From: Beverwykella pulmonaria | Lineage: Eukaryota; Ascomycota; Dothideomycetes; Pleosporales; Melanommataceae | NCBI GenBank assembly: GCA_001599595.1 | Contig: BCHH01000004.1 | Location: forward strand, 2,243,762 to 2,307,761 | Direction: 5' to 3' | DNA: 64,000 nucleotides | Shown here: positions 1-45,570 of the stretch, piece by piece | How the letters are laid out: every line of letters starts with the position of its first letter | How positions within the stretch are numbered: position 1 is the first letter of the stretch | Notes under the pieces: model-generated | Database searches by the model: none | Told to the model about the DNA's origin: nothing | What the model saw: only the letters and a program-made list of their open reading frames with translations | Made by a program: the position numbers and the translations under genes

Positions 1-2890
1 TCATGGCCTCCTGATGAAGCCGCCTGGAGTGCGTTGCCGTAGAATCCACCCTGCGCGTTGACGTCGGCGCCCTTGTCAAGCAGCAGCCGCACAATTTCTA
101 AGTGAAATTCTGAAGACGCATAGTATATTGGGGTAGCACGTCTTCCATCTTTCTCGTTAAGGTTGTACCCTGCATCCAGAAGTCGAATAACAGCACTGAC
201 TAATCCTGCAGAGCATGCAAGATGCAATGCATACTTCGGTGGTGTATGACCTTCCCATTGTTGTCTTAGAATAGGGATATCATAAAGACGAGTGCCGTAA
301 ACAATTGTGCTTGCAGATACTGGGAACAACATAGGATCGAATTGTTCCTTTACGCTTTGCCAATCCAGTTCGTCTCGCAAAGCGTTGATCTGCAGCATGG
401 CGGCGAGGTATTGGCCATCTTGCTGGAAAAGTTCTTCCAATTGTTGCATTACATCGTGGGAAATCTTATCGCATTTTGAAATGTGATAATCAAAGTTCGC
501 ATTTGCATATCCCACAAATGGATATTTGTTCAAGCGAACGGAGAGGTCGAAGTCATCGTGAACTGGACGTTGGAAGTTGGCAAGACGGATGTACCTGAGA
601 CATGCCAGGCTTAACCGTGTATGCATGGAACTCAAGTCTAGAAGCTTTTTTCGTATGGAACCTTGTGATAACCCCTCGGCAGGTGTAGTAAAGAACTCCT
701 GGACTGTGTAGTGGATCGGCCGGATCGCGCCATTCGCTTCCTCCAGCAGATTGTTACAGGCTTCTAGTATCACCTTCGGGTCGTCAGGTTGTAAATCCCT
801 TTGGTTTTTGCAATGAGAGCTTGTTGCAAGTGTATCTTGTAATTCTCTAGTATTTAGAGGCCTTCGTGCGTAAATCATCCACGCAAGACAATTCAGCGCT
901 AGTTCTCTCATGTACGGCGGCTGACCTTCGATCCGCTCCAGTATTCGAACGTAGGTATCTTCCAAGCCCTCCGGTAGTGCTCCCAGCGCTTCTTCAACCA
1001 ATTGATCTCTATGAGCCTTGCTAATCTGACAAAGATTATCTAGTTGAAGATTGACCCAAAGAAACCTGCCACCTAATAAGCCTGCAAGTCCCGTTTGGTC
1101 AACAGAAGGCGGATACCCACATTCCGTCGGCTTTCTTGGCAAGTGTTTGAACGATTCTCTCCTCGAGCTCGTCGCTAGTGAGGTAGAGTGTTTTCCCGTA
1201 CTCTCCATTGCGGAGTTTGATGACTTGGTGGCGCGCAAATATATCTATATCAGCTGCGACGTTCTCCGCTCGAACTGGGACTGTAGGTACGCGCTTGTCT
1301 TCAAAAGCCTTGGCAATATCCATCTCCCTCCGACTAGTGACAAATACTTTGACGCAGCATGGAATTTTCGCTGTAACTATTACGGTGATGAAGCCAATGA
1401 TGTCCTTTCTCTCCCGCTCCGGGCACTCGTCTAAAGCGTCAAACACAACAAATACCTGAGATAGATCTTCAATGAGCGAAACAAATCTTTCTGGTGTGCC
1501 GACTGAAGATGGGTGAAGAGCATCATGCTTTAGTCTCAGCAGGTGAGGGGGTATACTATTCTTCTTCCGACATAGCTGCTTGATGAGAGCAGCTATGATC
1601 TGGGAGACATCTCCCAACAGCGGGTTCCGATAGTTGTAGTAGGCGAAGCAGACCGCCGTGTCCTCTTGTAGACCGCATTCAGCGGTGATGTATTCTAGGA
1701 CGTTTGACCTAGTCTATAGATGAGGATGATGAGTAAGGCTAGCTTAGACACGAAAACGCTTACGCAAGTACTGACTTGCCGATCCCAGCTACAGGTGGTT
1801 AGCAGGATCTAGCATGCAAGGGATACAACGCTGCTTACGTTTTCCATAACACCATAGAAGGGATGAGACTGGGCTACTAAACCATTGTTGATACTTCAAC
1901 TCGGAGATCAACCAATCGCACGTCTGTTCGTTCTTCTTTGCATATATGTCATCATGCACTTTCTCAAAGTCAATATTCGAAACCCATGCGAGAAATGCCG
2001 ACTTCTCTTGCCCTAAAATAATGTCAACGAGATACCAGTCGGTGATGCATGGGATGAAAGCACCTACGTTCCTCAGACTCCCTGAAAGCATTGAAATGTA
2101 ATGCTTGGACTGAATGCAAGAGCACGTCGAGATGGCGTTGCATATCCGCTTTGATAGATACAAACTCATCCTCAAAAGTCTCCCACTGCTGGCGCATGAA
2201 AGCTCTTAAAGATGACCACTTCCGTAGTTCTCCGTTTGGGTGAACAAAGACACGACGTACTTTCCAGCCAAAATCAAGCACATTTCCATAGGCCTTGACA
2301 ACCATATCCTCCACAGAATTTATGTCCGCGGCTAGCGCGTACTCCATCAATGGTCCTAGGTAATTTTCGAATGTGCAGATCATATCTGTCAATCTGCTGA
2401 AAAAAGTCGTGAACTGCAAAGCTAGGTCGATGACAATTCGGACTGCACCAACTACCAGAGATGATATTTCAGGGCTCGCCTGAATACCAATTGCGACACC
2501 TCCCATAAATCTATTGAGCAGGCCCAGAAACTTTGAAAGACGCTCAGCATGAGGTCTAAAGGAAGAGTTGCTTTTATGTGTTGCATCGTAAGCCCTAGCA
2601 TTTGATATGAGAGTCCTCTCGTCGATGGTCTTTGCGGCTTGCAGGAACGTTGCCTTTTCAGGTTCTGGGATTTTTTGCAGGTGTATCGCTAGTGCTCTTT
2701 CTAGGGCGTGGTTTCGTGATGTTGCTGAGGTCGACGCGTCCTTAGTCGGTATAGTCGTGGAAGGCGAAGAGGTTGAGGGAGGGGATGATGTTGTCTGCAC
2801 AGGCGATTGTACGGATGAAGCTGGACCGGAAGCATCTGACGCGAAGAACTTATGCACATAATTTCGCACGCGGTCTCGCTTCCCCATCAC
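1..2890 (-). CDS. NACHT-ankyrin NLR-like protein, 3' end outside window
   Basis: STAND (NLR-like) signalling ATPase of the kind linked to fungal non-self recognition. Exons read as 2068-2890, 1839-2012, 1764-1788, 1121-1708 and 1-1065, all phases agreeing. The N-terminal ~270 residues are helical and resemble the domain preceding NACHT in fungal STAND proteins (DUF7708-like). The Walker A reads GKPGIGKSVLA and is assembled across splice junctions; a 25-nt exon (1764-1788) supplies its core. Walker B is VVFDALDE, followed by the sensor VFVTSRRE and the ADGMFLWVNLQL segment typical of fungal NACHT proteins. The last visible residues (LLDKGADVNAQGGFYGNALQ) are ankyrin repeats running off the left edge. 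The next gene is a broken HET-domain gene on the same strand. What it recognises cannot be told. Confidence 0.88.
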
Positions 2891-3189
2891 AGATCGGAAT
2901 TATAGATTCAAAAGAGGCCTTAAATTTGCGCATACGGTATACAAACAGTTGGGTAGCTCATAGAGGAGAGAGATTGCGGGGCAGTTCTAGGAACCCTCCT
3001 GCCCCAGCCTACTCCCTCTTCGGGTTTAGTGTAGTCCCTAAGCTTAATCACGTCGTTCATTGCCCCCATTAAACCGCCGCTTTTAGAGGGCTGAGCTTAG
3101 TATAAAGTCAATCATGCCGCACTAACCGAGTTTGTTCCTCAGATTTGATGCACGCCAGACACATTTGTCGGACTGTATTCCGATCCGGG

Positions 3190-4760
3190 CTAGACAATAG
3201 CGAACTGTAGTGTTGCAGTTTCAATGACATGCCGGTCCACTGAGGCAAGCAGCTCACCATCCATACCCCGTAGATATGCTTCACCGACGAGACTAAATTG
3301 CTCATCCGAGAGGCTGATGTCCCCCTTTCCGTTTTTCCTGCGCAGAACCACAGGTACAGAGCACCCAAAAAGAATGCACACCAGGTCATCGTTGTTCACA
3401 TCTTGCAAACTCCACACGACGAAGAACTTCAGGTTCCACACTACCGACTGGACGCGTTTTAAAAAGTCAACAGCAAACTTCGGCACGGACACGTTTTCGA
3501 GGAGTTTCGACGTATTCAGATCGCCATTGGTGCTCAGCCTTGTCAGGCAATGCATACATGCTCGTCGCCACCATTGGATTCGTCAGGCGTATTGTTGTTT
3601 TCAAGAAGAGTTCCCGCGTTAGGCAATGAACCTTCTGGCGGTTGCTAATGGTGAAAGAACAAATGCGGAGAGCGTGGAGAGCACAAACCATCTGGTGTAC
3701 TGAATCGTGTGTCCGCCGTTTTGCTGAGAGACGCATTATATATGCGACGGCCCGGAGCACCAACGAGGCTATCACCGTTCATACGACGAGTGAAATGAGA
3801 TGGTGGACCGAAGGAAGACTCTGTTACGAGCTCAATCCGACTTGGGATATGCGACCTGGGTGGCGGGGTGAAGGCACACGGGACTGGTAACGATGCAATG
3901 TTGTTCATCTATCTCAAAGGTAGAGCCCAATGTTTGCAGATGATTTCCAGGGAGCGGCCTGATTCGACGCAATATCGCACAAACTCTGCGTAGACCTCAA
4001 GAGGTGCCATGGTGTAGTCGAGGACTAGACCACGAACGCTGCTCTCTGTTGACATGTGTCCATCGCTGGCCAGTGATAACAATGCATAGATAGTGTCCGG
4101 TGAGTCGGACGCTTCGAAGTGATGGAACATAGTCACAAGCTTCTCAATGCCCCAAAGTCTTGTGACGACTTGCCCATTCTCCATCTTTTGGAACACGTTG
4201 TTGGAAGCTCGTACAATTGCGGTAGCCCCAGCAGATTCCAGATGGCTCAGAGCATCAGGATCACGTTTGAAAAATTTCGAGCTGTTGTAAATCGCTCGGA
4301 TGCGATCCAAATTTGCTTGAAATAGTTGTACGGCATCGGCAAAGTCGATCCAATTTATCTTTTTACTACCATAGTGGACTGATGCAGCACAGGAAGCCGA
4401 CACTTCTTGGATTACCCACCGACGTCGGAACCACGGCTTCGTGAGCAAATTGGTGAACGAAACAATAGATTTCAGAGAATATATTGATATACCCACGCTC
4501 AAGATGCGGTCGAAAGATCTCAGATTGACGATCTGGGGAATAAAATCAATAGGATTCGCTGCAGTTGAGGTGCCGAGTTCCTCTACATTTTCATCGTCTC
4601 CAAGCCAAATGCACACACTCTCGGCATTTGAGTAGATATCGGGCATCTTAGGCAGCTGATGGCTCTTTTCTACATCATCAGTTTGGTTGATGCAGATTGC
4701 GTCGACCCAGAAGTATATGTCTTCTTCCGACGGGACCCTCAATCGTGAATCTATCCGCAT
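3190..4760 (-). pseudogene. Broken heterokaryon-incompatibility (HET) domain gene
   Basis: HET domains act in allorecognition and cell death. The frame from 4760 downward carries the HET core: WVDAICINQ, a SVCIWLGDD-like block, KPWFRRRWVIQEV and DTIYALLSLASD. It stops at an in-frame TAG (3909-3911). The same frame reopens directly as the usual downstream part (FGPPSHFTRRMNGDSLVG). After about 3645 homology moves to another frame, and the family C-terminus (DLVCILFGCSVPVVLRRKNG, then LVGEAYLRGMDGE) is in the frame of 3190-3555. The N-terminal portion before WVDAICINQ is short, and an in-frame TGA lies at 4806-4808. No splice pair removes the TAG, so I read this as a decayed gene. A short truncated HET protein could still be made. 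Confidence 0.75.
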
Positions 4761-4853
4761 ACGAATCAACTGGAGCGAAGCTGTATAGAGAAGGCATGGT
4801 CGTGCTCAGCGATTGCAGATTCGATATCCGTGCTGACCAGGATCATGCCTGGG

Positions 4854-4985
4854 TCTCTTCTCGAGGTGATTCTGATAGTGTAATCGACAGCTGATAGCAC
4901 TTCGTCCGGGCAATTTCTTGGAAATATCGACCCATTTCATTCTCGATTGTCGCAGCTTCATTATCAAAGCATCTTCTTCAGGTGC
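4854..4985 (-). pseudogene. Myb/SANT-like domain fragment
   Basis: This 44-codon stretch reads as one Myb-like DNA-binding repeat, with the blocks PEEDALI, MKWVDISKKLPGRSAI and SCRLHYQNHLEKR, which match a common fungal Myb-like domain. It starts straight after a TGA (4986-4988), homology ends at LEKR, and the frame closes at a TGA (4806-4808). No full gene surrounds it. It lies in the same frame as the HET relic, separated from it by that TGA, so the two fragments may have been joined by a rearrangement. Recognition rests on my memory of the family. Confidence 0.6.
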
Positions 4986-42198: not shown

Positions 42199-43928
42199 TT
42201 ATTCAACTTTACTAGTAACCTTCCTTGATGTGCCTATTACTGTTTCTAGAAGAATTTTTCTACCCCGGCGCTGAGCCCTACCCACGGGCAGACGAACAGC
42301 GGATCTACGCGATTGATCCGAATTGCCTGTTAGGATTGTATGACCACGATCAGGCGATCTAGCCAGCCGTCTTCTAGGCCAAATATTTATCATCTCATCC
42401 CAATCCGCGAGGAGTGAATCGATGAGATCGTCCTCTTCCTGGTGGGGCCCATCAGCATCTCCGGCCCGGCCTTTGCTTCTACGACGATTGCGGTGGATGC
42501 TAACCGACTGTAATACGCCTTCGGGCCGCGAGTCAGATGCGAGAATCGTATATGGATATGTGTGTCTAAGTGGCCGATGATGGGGCTGGTGAGGGAGAGG
42601 ACCCACTTGAGGATCTGATTGTCTCTGAATTCGAATGCCAGTATTGCTTTGGGGACGTTGTTTGGGGTTCTTCCCGGAGCTACTAGACGCAGAGACTAGA
42701 GGAGGTGGGCTATGAGGTTGCGGCCCCTCATTGTCGACTTGTAGCTTTAATTCTGTTTTCAAGATGACCAATATCGAGGTTGTTTTCTTAACGTATCGGC
42801 TAAGACGACGCATTCGCGGCCGAAGGCCTGCTAACTTCCATTCCATCACAGGTTCATGCCGTTGTAGTAGTTGATTTTGTCTGTTTACCAGCCAATCAAT
42901 GGCGTTACATTGATTCTGTGATCCTAAACCATCGTATACATCTTGAAGAGTTATGCCTTTCTTACCATTTTCTGCTAGCTGGCTTGCGACTTGCAAGAAA
43001 AGCTCTTCGCTAGAGAATGCCAAAGAAGCTATTGCCGGGGTTCTCCAAGATGGAATCTGGCCAGGTTCATAACCATTGGTGATTCCCTTTCTAACCTTCC
43101 ATCCCGCGTAACGAGGATGATGGAAAACGGTTGCTACTACTGATGATTCTGGCTGGGAAATGTATAAACTTCTAAAGAGCGAATCGCCTGAGGTTGGTAG
43201 GACTTGGCCATTGCGAACCATTTCAAGCTTTGACTTAGTTTCCTTGAGTTCCTCTATAAGATCGGCAACTGTATTTCTCTTTTCGACATTTGACCTGGAC
43301 TACGATCAGCCAATCTTCTTTGGATGAACGAACTTTGGATGCGCCGCTTACTTTTGCTCCCGCATACTCATTGAAAATATCCAGAGCCGTATTTGCAAAT
43401 TCAACTTGTGGTCATGTATCTCGAGCTCAACTACAGAAATCCTGCTCTCTAGCAAAGCAATCATCTCTTTCTCCAATTCAACTTTCTCGCGTTTTTGCAC
43501 AGCCTCCCTCGAGGGCTGGGGAACTTGGTTCATAACTTCATAGATTCGCTCTTGGATGTTGTGAAACGTCGCTTTACAACTCTCTATTTCATCGAAAAGT
43601 TGCTTCGCCGCTCTAGGAATCTTAGAAGGCATCTCCATCTCATTTCCTGTGAGCTCCACAAACAACTCTTTTATTTCACTCAGAATGGATGACGTGGAGC
43701 GGATGCGATCGCCTACGCTCTTCATTCGTACGTCAGCTCCTTTAATTCTTGCAGCATAGCTGAACATATGATCAGCAAGCGATGTAGCGATATGAATTGT
43801 TTGGTTTATTTGTCGTTCTAAACATGCCTCAGTGTATAGCAAAGGTGGAAATGCGTTGGAGACGTACCGATATTTATATTTCCCCCAGCTAGGTTAGTGA
43901 CGGGAGCGTGATTATCAATACGCGCCAT
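42199..43928 (-). CDS. Helical/coiled-coil accessory protein with N-terminal amyloid-like motif
   Basis: Exons 43868-43928, 43352-43817 and 42199-43294; introns of 50 and 57 nt; 540 aa. Residues 1-27 read MARIDNHAPVTNLAGGNINI then ERQINQT. Residues V10-N25 match the C-terminus of the divergent hydrolase gene at 11 of 16 positions. A helical region follows (IATSLADHMFSYAARIKGAD, IRSTSSILSEIKELFVELTG), resembling N-terminal helical domains of fungal STAND-type proteins. A coiled coil comes next (about 130-200), then a region with WKVRKGITNGYEPG and MEWKLAGLRP, and a basic Arg/Pro-rich C-terminus. No P-loop or NACHT is seen. I infer a receptor or adaptor for the hydrolase; function otherwise unknown. 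Confidence 0.75.
43804..43901 (-). other. Shared motif, N-terminal copy (VTNLAGGNINIERQIN)
   Basis: Sixteen residues (V10-N25) aligned without gaps to VVNLAQRDINIESQIN at the end of the neighbouring hydrolase. The motif spans the first intron (43818-43867); the acceptor TTTAG|AACGAC is the only one keeping the frame. Short hydrophobic/Asn-Gln alternation fits a beta-arch amyloid motif. Confidence 0.75.
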
Positions 43929-44429
43929 TGTGAACTGCTTCCTTCATGGAGATGGTTATGCGAGTATAGCAGTACTCTCTTTTTCCACCGTTGTAGTAAA
44001 AGGATATGGAAGTGTTTGGGAGCGGGGCCGAACTGCCCCCACTAAGGCTCTAATATACCCCACCCAGTTGCAGATGTGGGAATGGTAGGAGGCGCCGGAT
44101 TTGGTTATCATTTAGACTTTTTATAAAGAAGGCTAAACCAAAAGCAGGCAGCATTGCAGAGATATAACTTAGCCCCTATATTTGTGTTCCAATGCGTCCG
44201 CTGAGGCATGTAAGCCACAAATTCCTGATTGATCGGTTAAAGAGTGACCAGCGCCAAGATGGTTCATTGATAACGGATTTATAATAGGTTTACTCACAAT
44301 TGGGGCGGGGTCCACATCGGTGCCTACAGAGTAGAGGTATATAGTTATAGCCATCATGCTGACAGAGGCCTTGTGTATCAACTTTTGCTGCACAAGCCTA
44401 ACCATCCTAATAACCAAAAACAGTTAGCT
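43929..44429. promoter_or_regulatory. Shared divergent promoter region
   Basis: 501 bases between the start codons of the motif-sharing pair, with no coding sequence of its own. Head-to-head arrangement would allow co-expression. No specific binding site is claimed. Confidence 0.45.
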
Positions 44430-45570
44430 ATGGCAGAATATGGGTTTGTTAAATGGCACGATGGAGAAAATGCAGAAGTAGAGTAAGCGTTATGAAAGCA
44501 AGCAGCTACTATGGTTTTAAGCTAACTCTAACAGCATCATCTTCGTCCACGGCCTTCGAGGAGGGAGAGAGTCTACTTGGACAAAAGATGAGGTAGTTTG
44601 GCCAAAAGAATTGCTGTCAGAAGACATCCCGAAGAGTCGCATACTGAGCTTTGGTTATGACTCTGGAGTTGTACATACTGATACCGCAGATGTTACTGAA
44701 GGTAGCCTTGCGGACGATGCACGAAGGCTCTGCAGTCTCCTTGACGATGAGCGCAAGCAGACAAAGACTGTAAACTATCCGTATAGGCCCGAAATTTCAT
44801 TGAAAGCTAACTCTTTTCTGGCAGACTGATCGGCCGATCATTGTGATAGGCCATAGCCTGGGCGGTCTAGTCCTCGCTCAAGTTGTCTATAGCGGGAATG
44901 CGGCCGCGGAAGGAGACAGCATCAATTCGATCGCGCAAAAGATCCAGGGTATGATATTCCTTGGTACACCATTCCACGGCTCCAAAATTGCTGGGTGGGC
45001 GGACGTTGTTAGACGAGTCTACAGTCTTATTCAAAAGACTGACCCAAACACCTTGAAAAATCTCAAACTAGACTCGATGGAGCTTAAAGATCTTCGCGAC
45101 GGTTTCCCAGAAGTCATTCGTAAGCGAAATCAGACTTCATCTAAAATTGCAGTCGTTTTCTTCTTTGAGAAGAAAATGACATACAAAGTAGTATGCATAG
45201 AATTGTAGGCTCTAAATAATCTTGGATACTAACAGAGATGGGTAGTGGGTAGTTAAAGAGGATGATGCATGCTACCGTGGAGTTGGAGAAGTATTGCCCA
45301 TACAAGCGAATCATCTCGACATTTGTAAGTTCGATGACCGTGAAGATGATGGATATAAGCAAGTGAGAGCGAAGATTATACAAACTATGCAAGCGACAGG
45401 CATCACTGATGCAAGAGAGGTAAGCAATCTTCCCGTAAGACTCTTCCAAGAGATTCGAGCAAGTAACAAAGAAATAGGGAGGCAACGTTTATACTGTCAA
45501 TGTTTACGGCAAGGTTGTGAATCTTGCTCAGCGTGACATCAATATCGAGTCACAAATAAACTATCTCTGA
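44430..45570 (+). CDS. SesB-like alpha/beta-hydrolase with C-terminal amyloid-like motif
   Basis: Serine esterase/lipase-type hydrolase of the DUF676/SesB kind. Exons 44430-44482, 44535-44769, 44825-45187, 45246-45419 and 45478-45570; introns of 52-58 nt; 305 aa. Motifs: IIFVHGLRGGRESTWTKDEV, SILSFGYDSG-like strand, nucleophile elbow GHSLGGLVLAQ, and MIFLGTPFHGSKIAGWADVV. The probable catalytic His is in IQANHLDICKF. In other fungi this domain often precedes NACHT; here the protein ends after it with NVYTVNVYGKVVNLAQRD and INIESQINYL. The end motif copies the N-terminus of the divergent neighbour. I infer a cell-death-type effector triggered by motif templating. The last exon was chosen because donor and acceptor keep phase 0. 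Confidence 0.82.
45514..45561 (+). other. Shared motif, C-terminal copy (VVNLAQRDINIESQIN)
   Basis: Residues 288-303 of the hydrolase, two residues before the stop. Identical to the neighbour's N-terminal copy at V, N, L, A, I, N, I, E, Q, I and N. It lies on its own last exon. Confidence 0.78.

Follow-up and report, generated by a model that had tools for sequence, protein, structure and literature searches.

A SesB-like hydrolase and the probable HeLo-like protein encoded by its divergent neighbour share a terminal motif in Beverwykella pulmonaria

In fungal amyloid-signalling pairs, the same short motif generally occurs at the C-terminus of an effector and at the N-terminus of the protein encoded by an adjacent gene, the N-terminal copy being carried by a NOD-like receptor (NLR) with a NACHT or NB-ARC domain plus repeats. 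In the excerpts of the published accounts on which all statements about described systems are based here, the PP and sigma loci are three-membered, and sesA or sesB is missing from some loci. A window of 64,000 nucleotides from Beverwykella pulmonaria (contig BCHH01000004.1, positions 2,243,762 to 2,307,761; contig C4 of a 45.6-Mb genome in 31 contigs) contains a gene for a SesB-like alpha/beta hydrolase next to a second, divergently oriented gene, hereafter the partner gene. A 16-residue motif is present at the C-terminus of the hydrolase and at the N-terminus of the partner, as in the general pair, and the genes are likewise adjacent, but the partner carries no NLR domain. On balance we lean towards the reading that the two genes form an effector–partner pair coupled by a homotypic amyloid-type motif, in which the link from a SesB-like lipase to a HeLo-like protein would be direct, the locus having no NLR.

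The splice models of both genes, read from sequence only, were rebuilt. An ungapped comparison of hydrolase residues 288-303 (VVNLAQRDINIESQIN) with partner residues 10-25 (VTNLAGGNINIERQIN) showed 11 identities in 16 positions and a G/N/Q content of 30-33%. A sequence-only reading of this DNA had reported this motif and had placed it at the two termini of adjacent divergent genes; the rebuilt models and the shuffles described below agree on both points, and the coordinates were exact to the base. The best 16-mer match between the two proteins is this one, and 2,000 shuffles of both (first 373 aa of the partner) reached at most 9 identities. When the 30-aa hydrolase tail was compared with the 50-aa N-terminus of the partner using BLOSUM62, the score was 50, which was not equalled in any of 5,000 shuffles (best 41 ungapped and 45 gapped). 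As a control on real sequence, 29,756 pairs of C-terminal 30 and N-terminal 50 residues were scored, taken from 173 ATG-to-stop open reading frames (ORFs) of the window and loci L030-L045, some of these ORFs not being genes. None of these pairs reached 50, and the single pair scoring 45 was a true ankyrin homology. A chance origin of the motif match is unlikely.

At the DNA level, the motif is identical at 32 of 48 nt, synonymous codon differences occur at five of the 11 identical residues, and blastn between the hydrolase and partner genes gave no match over 16 nt. On these grounds, a recent transfer of the motif DNA from one gene to the other was rejected; because of the synonymous differences and the lack of a DNA match over 16 nt, the motif match looks as if it were held by selection on the protein sequence rather than being a fresh copy. 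The nine-residue core, NLAxx[ND]INI, was searched genome-wide as a degenerate DNA pattern, which gave two perfect matches, namely the two motif sites, recovered by construction; the information lies in the absence of a third. Allowing one mismatch added a single match, with a stop inside it, and at two mismatches there were 44 matches, compared to 33 for the reversed control pattern. With the 30-aa hydrolase tail as query against the genome, only the tail itself was found. A second DNA pattern, NIxxQIN, gave nine genome matches, of which one was the hydrolase and four belonged to one repeat family; none of the others was at a plausible gene end. The pair does not appear in a six-frame scan of the window locus, because an intron splits the partner motif. 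A repeated DNA element, found at eight places in the genome (e.g. C2:1765136-1765163 and C10:14749-14776), reads NLAQRDIHK in one frame; NLAQRDI is common to this element and the hydrolase tail, with mostly different codons.

Comparison with the published motif families whose consensus is given in text (PP, sigma, HET-s and PUASM) comprised 63 sequence-consensus tests across seven sequences, with 1,000 shuffles each. In two of them, one being the hydrolase tail, 100 or fewer shuffles were as good, and neither was convincing. The PP motif (NxGxQxGxN, or in its longer form FxGx(x)NxGLQLxGxNxGxL; PMC3321046, PMC9815663) was rejected, since more than 100 of 1,000 shuffles scored equally on both sides. 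For the sigma motif (repeated GxGxQFNxx and GGTQNINT), the hydrolase tail agreed at 6 of 13 positions, with 56 of 1,000 shuffles as good, and the partner side did no better than 100 of 1,000 shuffles. Neither the HET-s related amyloid motifs (HRAM; N at 1 and 18, G at 10 and 17, hydrophobic residues at 3, 6, 14 and 16; PMC3321046) nor PUASM (FxGxGxQxxGxGxF; PMC9815663) was matched; the effector of PUASM is PNP_UDP, whereas that encoded here is an alpha/beta hydrolase. A 2025 paper counted at least four fungal motif families and had five in its test set (PMC12261475).

The domain types of the two proteins are assigned with differing certainty. Judged by its Pfam scores, the hydrolase is of the SesB-like kind: DUF676 (32.2 bits, cut-off 20.3) and PGAP1 (30.0 bits, cut-off 24.3), two models that we take to be tied to SesB, were both detected, and GHSLG is present at residues 105-109 with the nucleophile at Ser107. 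A PDB sequence search with the hydrolase gave a single match (E 0.82). Two in-frame splicings of the third intron are possible, giving 305 or 306 aa, and if the last intron is left unspliced the motif is lost.

For the partner, Pfam gave no domain over cut-off, and no NACHT, NB-ARC, WD, ankyrin or TPR domain was found in its 540 aa at E up to 10. A status as NLR or NLR remnant was rejected on the Pfam scans, and a HeLo-like domain directly after the motif is the best, and a probable, assignment. The best distant match of the partner in the genome (E 0.04, 22% identity) was at a locus with PigL_N and a ubiquitin-like domain, where PigL_N scored 27.6 bits against a cut-off of 27.2. PF17111 (PigL_N) gave 33 exon-level matches in this genome, 21 of them marked over cut-off. 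A HeLo-like profile was made from 12 own-genome proteins found via PF17111 and not via the partner (eight over cut-off and four below). With this profile, hmmsearch scored residues 27-147 of the partner at 19.3 bits (E 3.9e-5), whereas no score above 7.2 bits came from 1,000 shuffles. Another profile, which also took in three sequences retrieved by searching with the partner, scored 30.4 bits; it is biased and was not relied on. AlphaFold2 in single-sequence mode predicted four helices for partner residues 22-175, from which the motif is excluded, with a mean predicted local distance difference test (pLDDT) of 60.7; the pLDDT for residues ~177-374 was 39.7. Foldseek and VIA-align searches with the helical domain gave generic helical bundles, with no HeLo or MLKL among the 50 matches listed by each, and a PDB sequence search with the first 200 residues gave no match.

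Inspection by eye showed that a coiled coil follows the HeLo-like domain of the partner. It also showed that the start Met of the 12 HeLo-like relatives is at the domain edge or a few residues away, and that the place of the relatives' first residues is taken in the partner by the motif's second half, with 16 further residues upstream. Since the first Met in exon 2 is M38 and the HeLo-like match already starts at residue 27, use of exon 1 of the partner gene is suggested. The C-terminal half of the partner has about 90 aa in common with a long low-complexity protein (L069, G000:C1:4072011-4075280), for which no Pfam family over cut-off was found. The sequence-only reading was right that the hydrolase is SesB-like, that the flanking domains are unlike with the motif outside both, and that the motif diverges from the established types, the published consensuses fitting no better than chance; its implied view of the partner as a receptor of the known type is not supported, no NACHT, NB-ARC or repeat domain having been found.

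Hydrolase matches were found at 15 genome loci, and 14 of these were examined (the window and 13 others, 9-10 kb each), a weak 41-residue match at C2:4951376 being left out. The results showed that at 11 of the 14 loci the SesB-like sequence continues on the same strand into NLR parts, comprising NPHP3_N/NACHT or NB-ARC in nine and, at the cut-off used, TPR alone in two (L038 and L042). At these 11 loci, relatives of the SesB-like hydrolase appear as N-terminal domains of NLRs; hydrolase and NPHP3_N lie in one open frame at L034 (C3:1384755), and elsewhere a single gene is presumed. The remaining three SesB-like genes, that of the window and one each on contigs C2 and C7, stand alone, and all three hydrolases have a C-terminal tail matching the N-terminus of the protein encoded by the neighbouring gene, the matches at C2 and C7 being weak.

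The C2 (C2:907500-917000) and C7 (C7:474501-483500) loci resemble the window in having a stand-alone SesB-like gene and a neighbour with a similar N-terminal stretch. However, their partners are NLR-like (TPR at C2; NB-ARC plus TPR at C7), unlike the window partner, the motifs differ and the matches are weaker. At C2, the stretches of the hydrolase tail and the NLR-like neighbour (IENNQGVVMGHA against ISNNYGVVVGDA) agree at 8 of 12 positions, a match that 19 of 5,000 shuffles equalled or bettered. The weak C7 match, between NNLNIGGFIAGVVLG in the tail of the hydrolase and NTSNVGGAVSGITQAS in the divergent NB-ARC/TPR protein, was equalled or bettered by 7 of 5,000. These figures ignore how the matches were chosen. 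The C2 match was picked by eye, below the threshold of the C2 scan, and the C7 match was second in the scan list behind an implausible one, and for this reason both lend weak support. The window pair is the strongest of the three stand-alone pairs and the sole one with a partner that is not NLR-like. An intron lies between domain and tail in both the C7 and the C2 paralogue, the C2 model having a weak donor. The possibility that the three stand-alone tails are alike was rejected, because the similarity of the window tail to the other two was matched by 1,272 and 2,223 of 5,000 shuffles (ungapped); only the C2 and C7 tails are alike, with 8 of 5,000 shuffles scoring as high.

The C2 locus (L031, G000:C2:907500-917000) contains a HET gene (414-1440, minus strand), the SesB-like gene (~3781-4836, plus strand) and the TPR-bearing NLR-like gene (from 5378, plus strand). 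The C-terminal tails of the HET and SesB-like genes are near copies over 354 nt at 87% identity, intron and 3' flank included (283-626, minus strand; 4611-4962, plus strand), which looks like a segmental copy that passed a signalling tail to a HET effector. In the excerpts available, a 2012 survey found no HET/STAND (signal transduction ATPases with numerous domains) pairs by its criteria (PMC3321046).

The reading of the two window genes as an amyloid-type pair is favoured because the motif match is far beyond chance and at the right termini, because the core occurs perfectly just twice in the genome, both times at this locus, and because the motif appears to be under protein-level constraint. 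It is also favoured because the SesB-like hydrolase with its GHSLG faces a partner with a probable HeLo-like domain directly after the motif, because the SesB-like loci other than the 11 that run into NLR parts have tails matching their neighbours (two of the three weakly), and because the PP and sigma systems are precedents, het-s/nwd2 being a further case of divergent neighbours. On this reading, a cue would cause the HeLo-like partner to oligomerise through its helical and coiled-coil parts, and the clustered N-terminal motifs would fold into a cross-beta seed. The seed would template the C-terminal motif of the SesB-like lipase, which would be gathered, probably at the membrane reached by the HeLo-like domain, and local lipid hydrolysis by the lipase may then drive cell death or defence of the fungus. 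The physics would be that of the published loci with fewer parts, but the templating partner would not be an NLR, unlike in the described systems.

Several points weigh against the amyloid-type pair. The window hydrolase tail is not measurably similar to the C2 and C7 tails, no third copy of the motif was found in the genome by the DNA pattern or the tail query, and the motif fits none of the tested consensuses (PP, sigma, HET-s and PUASM) better than chance. Pfam scans of the partner with E limits of 1 and 10 did not report PF17111; the HeLo-like assignment depends on a profile made within this analysis, and hhalign of the same profile with the partner reached a probability of 5.2 and an E of 0.0075, which is weak. 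The described systems have the C-terminal motif on the HeLo-like protein and the N-terminal copy on the NLR, an arrangement that differs from the one here. In addition, the part of the motif that adjoins helix 1 could be helical.

An ordinary NLR signalosome, in which lipase, HeLo-like protein and NLR once had a common motif and the NLR has since been lost or is encoded at another place, its motif having diverged beyond recognition, is an unlikely alternative that nevertheless has points in its favour. PP and sigma loci have three members, with sesA or sesB absent from some, and pairs from non-adjacent genes have been suspected in print (PMC9815663). The neighbour match at C2 reaches only 8 of 12, so that a diverged NLR copy could slip past the DNA pattern. 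However, the genome has no other perfect copy and the lone one-mismatch match holds a stop, while the slight excess of two-mismatch matches (44 against 33 in the reversed control) would allow for a few weak true copies. Moreover, the N-terminal copy sits on the partner itself and not on an NLR, and in the NLR-like gene identified in the window (1-2899), ~39 kb away, the motif was not seen by eye in the N-terminal ORF, NLR domains elsewhere in the window not having been scanned for.

We are more doubtful still of a non-amyloid homotypic docking, in which the two termini would bind by beta addition or as a short helix to give a stable lipase–partner complex. In its favour, docking tags of such short length are common, helix 1 of the HeLo-like domain lies right next to the motif's second half, and no tested amyloid consensus was matched. 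On the other hand, the near identity of the two sides would speak for self-type stacking rather than for a two-sided lock and key, and the G/N/Q-rich composition and the position are like those of fungal amyloid motifs. A coincidental match, or a motif exon wrongly spliced into a model, is very improbable: although the splice models come from sequence, the minus-strand motif is split by an intron and missed by the unspliced six-frame scan, and a repeated genome element also reads NLAQRDI, neither the 5,000 shuffles nor the 29,756 control pairs equalled the match, both introns have GT-AG ends and yield long open frames on removal, and the HeLo-like match starts ahead of the first Met of exon 2.

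The amyloid-type pair also has a bolder form, which we put forward tentatively: an NLR-free amyloid signalosome built on a new motif family. In it, a scaffold protein with HeLo-like and coiled-coil parts would itself act as sensor and seed and would recruit a lipase by N-to-C-terminal templating. NLR-free pairs could be common, because NLR-centred surveys would not find them. As described in the excerpts, a large survey starts at NLR N-termini or at known effectors near NLRs and then screens whole genomes for co-occurrence of NLR ends and effector ends (PMC9815663). Some searches are not bound to NLRs: one sigma-tailed protein not adjoining a STAND gene is mentioned in the 2012 paper (PMC3321046), and a 2025 deep-learning scan covered a whole proteome, although its training was on bacterial motifs (PMC12261475). 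Among the titles and abstract openings listed by searches of open-licence papers, none named an amyloid pair without an NLR. If the bolder form is true, fungal amyloid signalling is not tied to NLRs, and the numerous HeLo-like proteins of fungi could include sensors besides executioners. The locus offers a test system of two genes and two motifs. It also offers a rule for searches, in which neighbouring genes are screened for matching termini and no NLR is needed as a starting point.

The features of the locus and of the C7 locus are listed in Table 1. Both divergent genes lie in an AT-rich stretch at 40-50 kb of the window, with 43-46% GC compared to 46-58% in the remaining 2-kb steps. Genes with introns, together with NLR, HET and HeLo-like families of fungal type, would point to a filamentous fungus as the source. 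The NLR-like gene in the window (1-2899, minus strand) has a Goodbye-like N-terminus below cut-off, NPHP3_N and ankyrin; a HET-domain gene (3912-4805, minus strand) is also present, and the two are ~37-39 kb from the pair.

Table 1. Features of the hydrolase–partner locus, in window positions, and of the stand-alone pair on contig C7, in positions of locus L033 (G000:C7:474501-483500)
Feature	Position	Strand	Basis
SesB-like alpha/beta hydrolase gene, 5 exons, 305 aa	44430-44482, 44535-44769, 44825-45187, 45246-45419, 45478-45570	+	rebuilt splice model; Pfam DUF676, PGAP1 and Abhydrolase_6 over cut-off
Last hydrolase intron, separating hydrolase domain from motif tail, GTAAGC...AAATAG	45420..45477	+	splice model; corresponding introns in two stand-alone paralogues
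Tail exon, residues 276-305: GGNVYTVNVYGKVVNLAQRDINIESQINYL then stop	45478..45570	+	splice model
Shared motif, hydrolase side, residues 288-303	45514..45561	+	16-mer comparison, splice model
Partner gene, 3 exons, 540 aa, no NLR domain found	43928-43868, 43817-43352, 43294-42199	-	rebuilt splice model; Pfam scans
Shared motif of the partner, exon 1 portion (from residue 10 through base 1 of codon 21)	43868..43901	-	16-mer comparison, splice model
50-nt intron splitting partner motif, GTACGT...TTTAG	43818..43867	-	splice model; without splicing, stop after 36 aa
Shared motif of the partner, exon 2 portion (up to residue 25)	43804..43817	-	splice model
Probable HeLo-like helical domain, ~residues 27-147	43438..43800	-	own-genome profile, 19.3 bits; four predicted helices
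C-terminal region of partner, residues 281-372, resembling part of long low-complexity protein (G000:C1:4073511-4073780)	42706..42981	-	E 0.004, 27% identity
Intergenic region between the two start codons, 501 bp	43929..44429	none	gene-model coordinates
L033, stand-alone SesB-like gene	~3197-4440	+	
L033, NB-ARC/TPR NLR	3-2486	-	

Among the described systems, the PP signalosome of Chaetomium globosum (HELLP/SBP/PNT1; HELLP was reportedly defined in a 2016 paper) resembles the locus in that a putative lipase, SBP, and a HeLo-like protein have a common motif and lie in one gene cluster, and in that the motif acts by amyloid templating, as is proposed for the pair here. In contrast, in that system an NLR regulates both effectors, whereas none was seen at the hydrolase–partner locus, and the motif here is without the PP core NxGxQxGxN. 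The het-S/nwd2 pair of Podospora anserina likewise consists of adjacent divergent genes with an effector C-terminal and a partner N-terminal motif, but its effector is a HeLo protein and not a lipase, its partner is an NLR, and the HET-s consensus is unmatched here. The sigma (ses) locus of Nectria haematococca (SESA/SESB/HET-eN) differs in including the NLR HET-eN, with no NLR seen at the present locus, and in its motif of ~40 aa, whose GxGxQFNxx and GGTQNINT units were not found in the motif described here. Its likeness lies in a SesB hydrolase and SESA with one common motif, and SESA remotely resembles HeLo-like proteins. The sigma copy of HET-eN was initially overlooked owing to an unnoticed 5' intron (PMC3321046), and the partner motif here is likewise split by a 5' intron.

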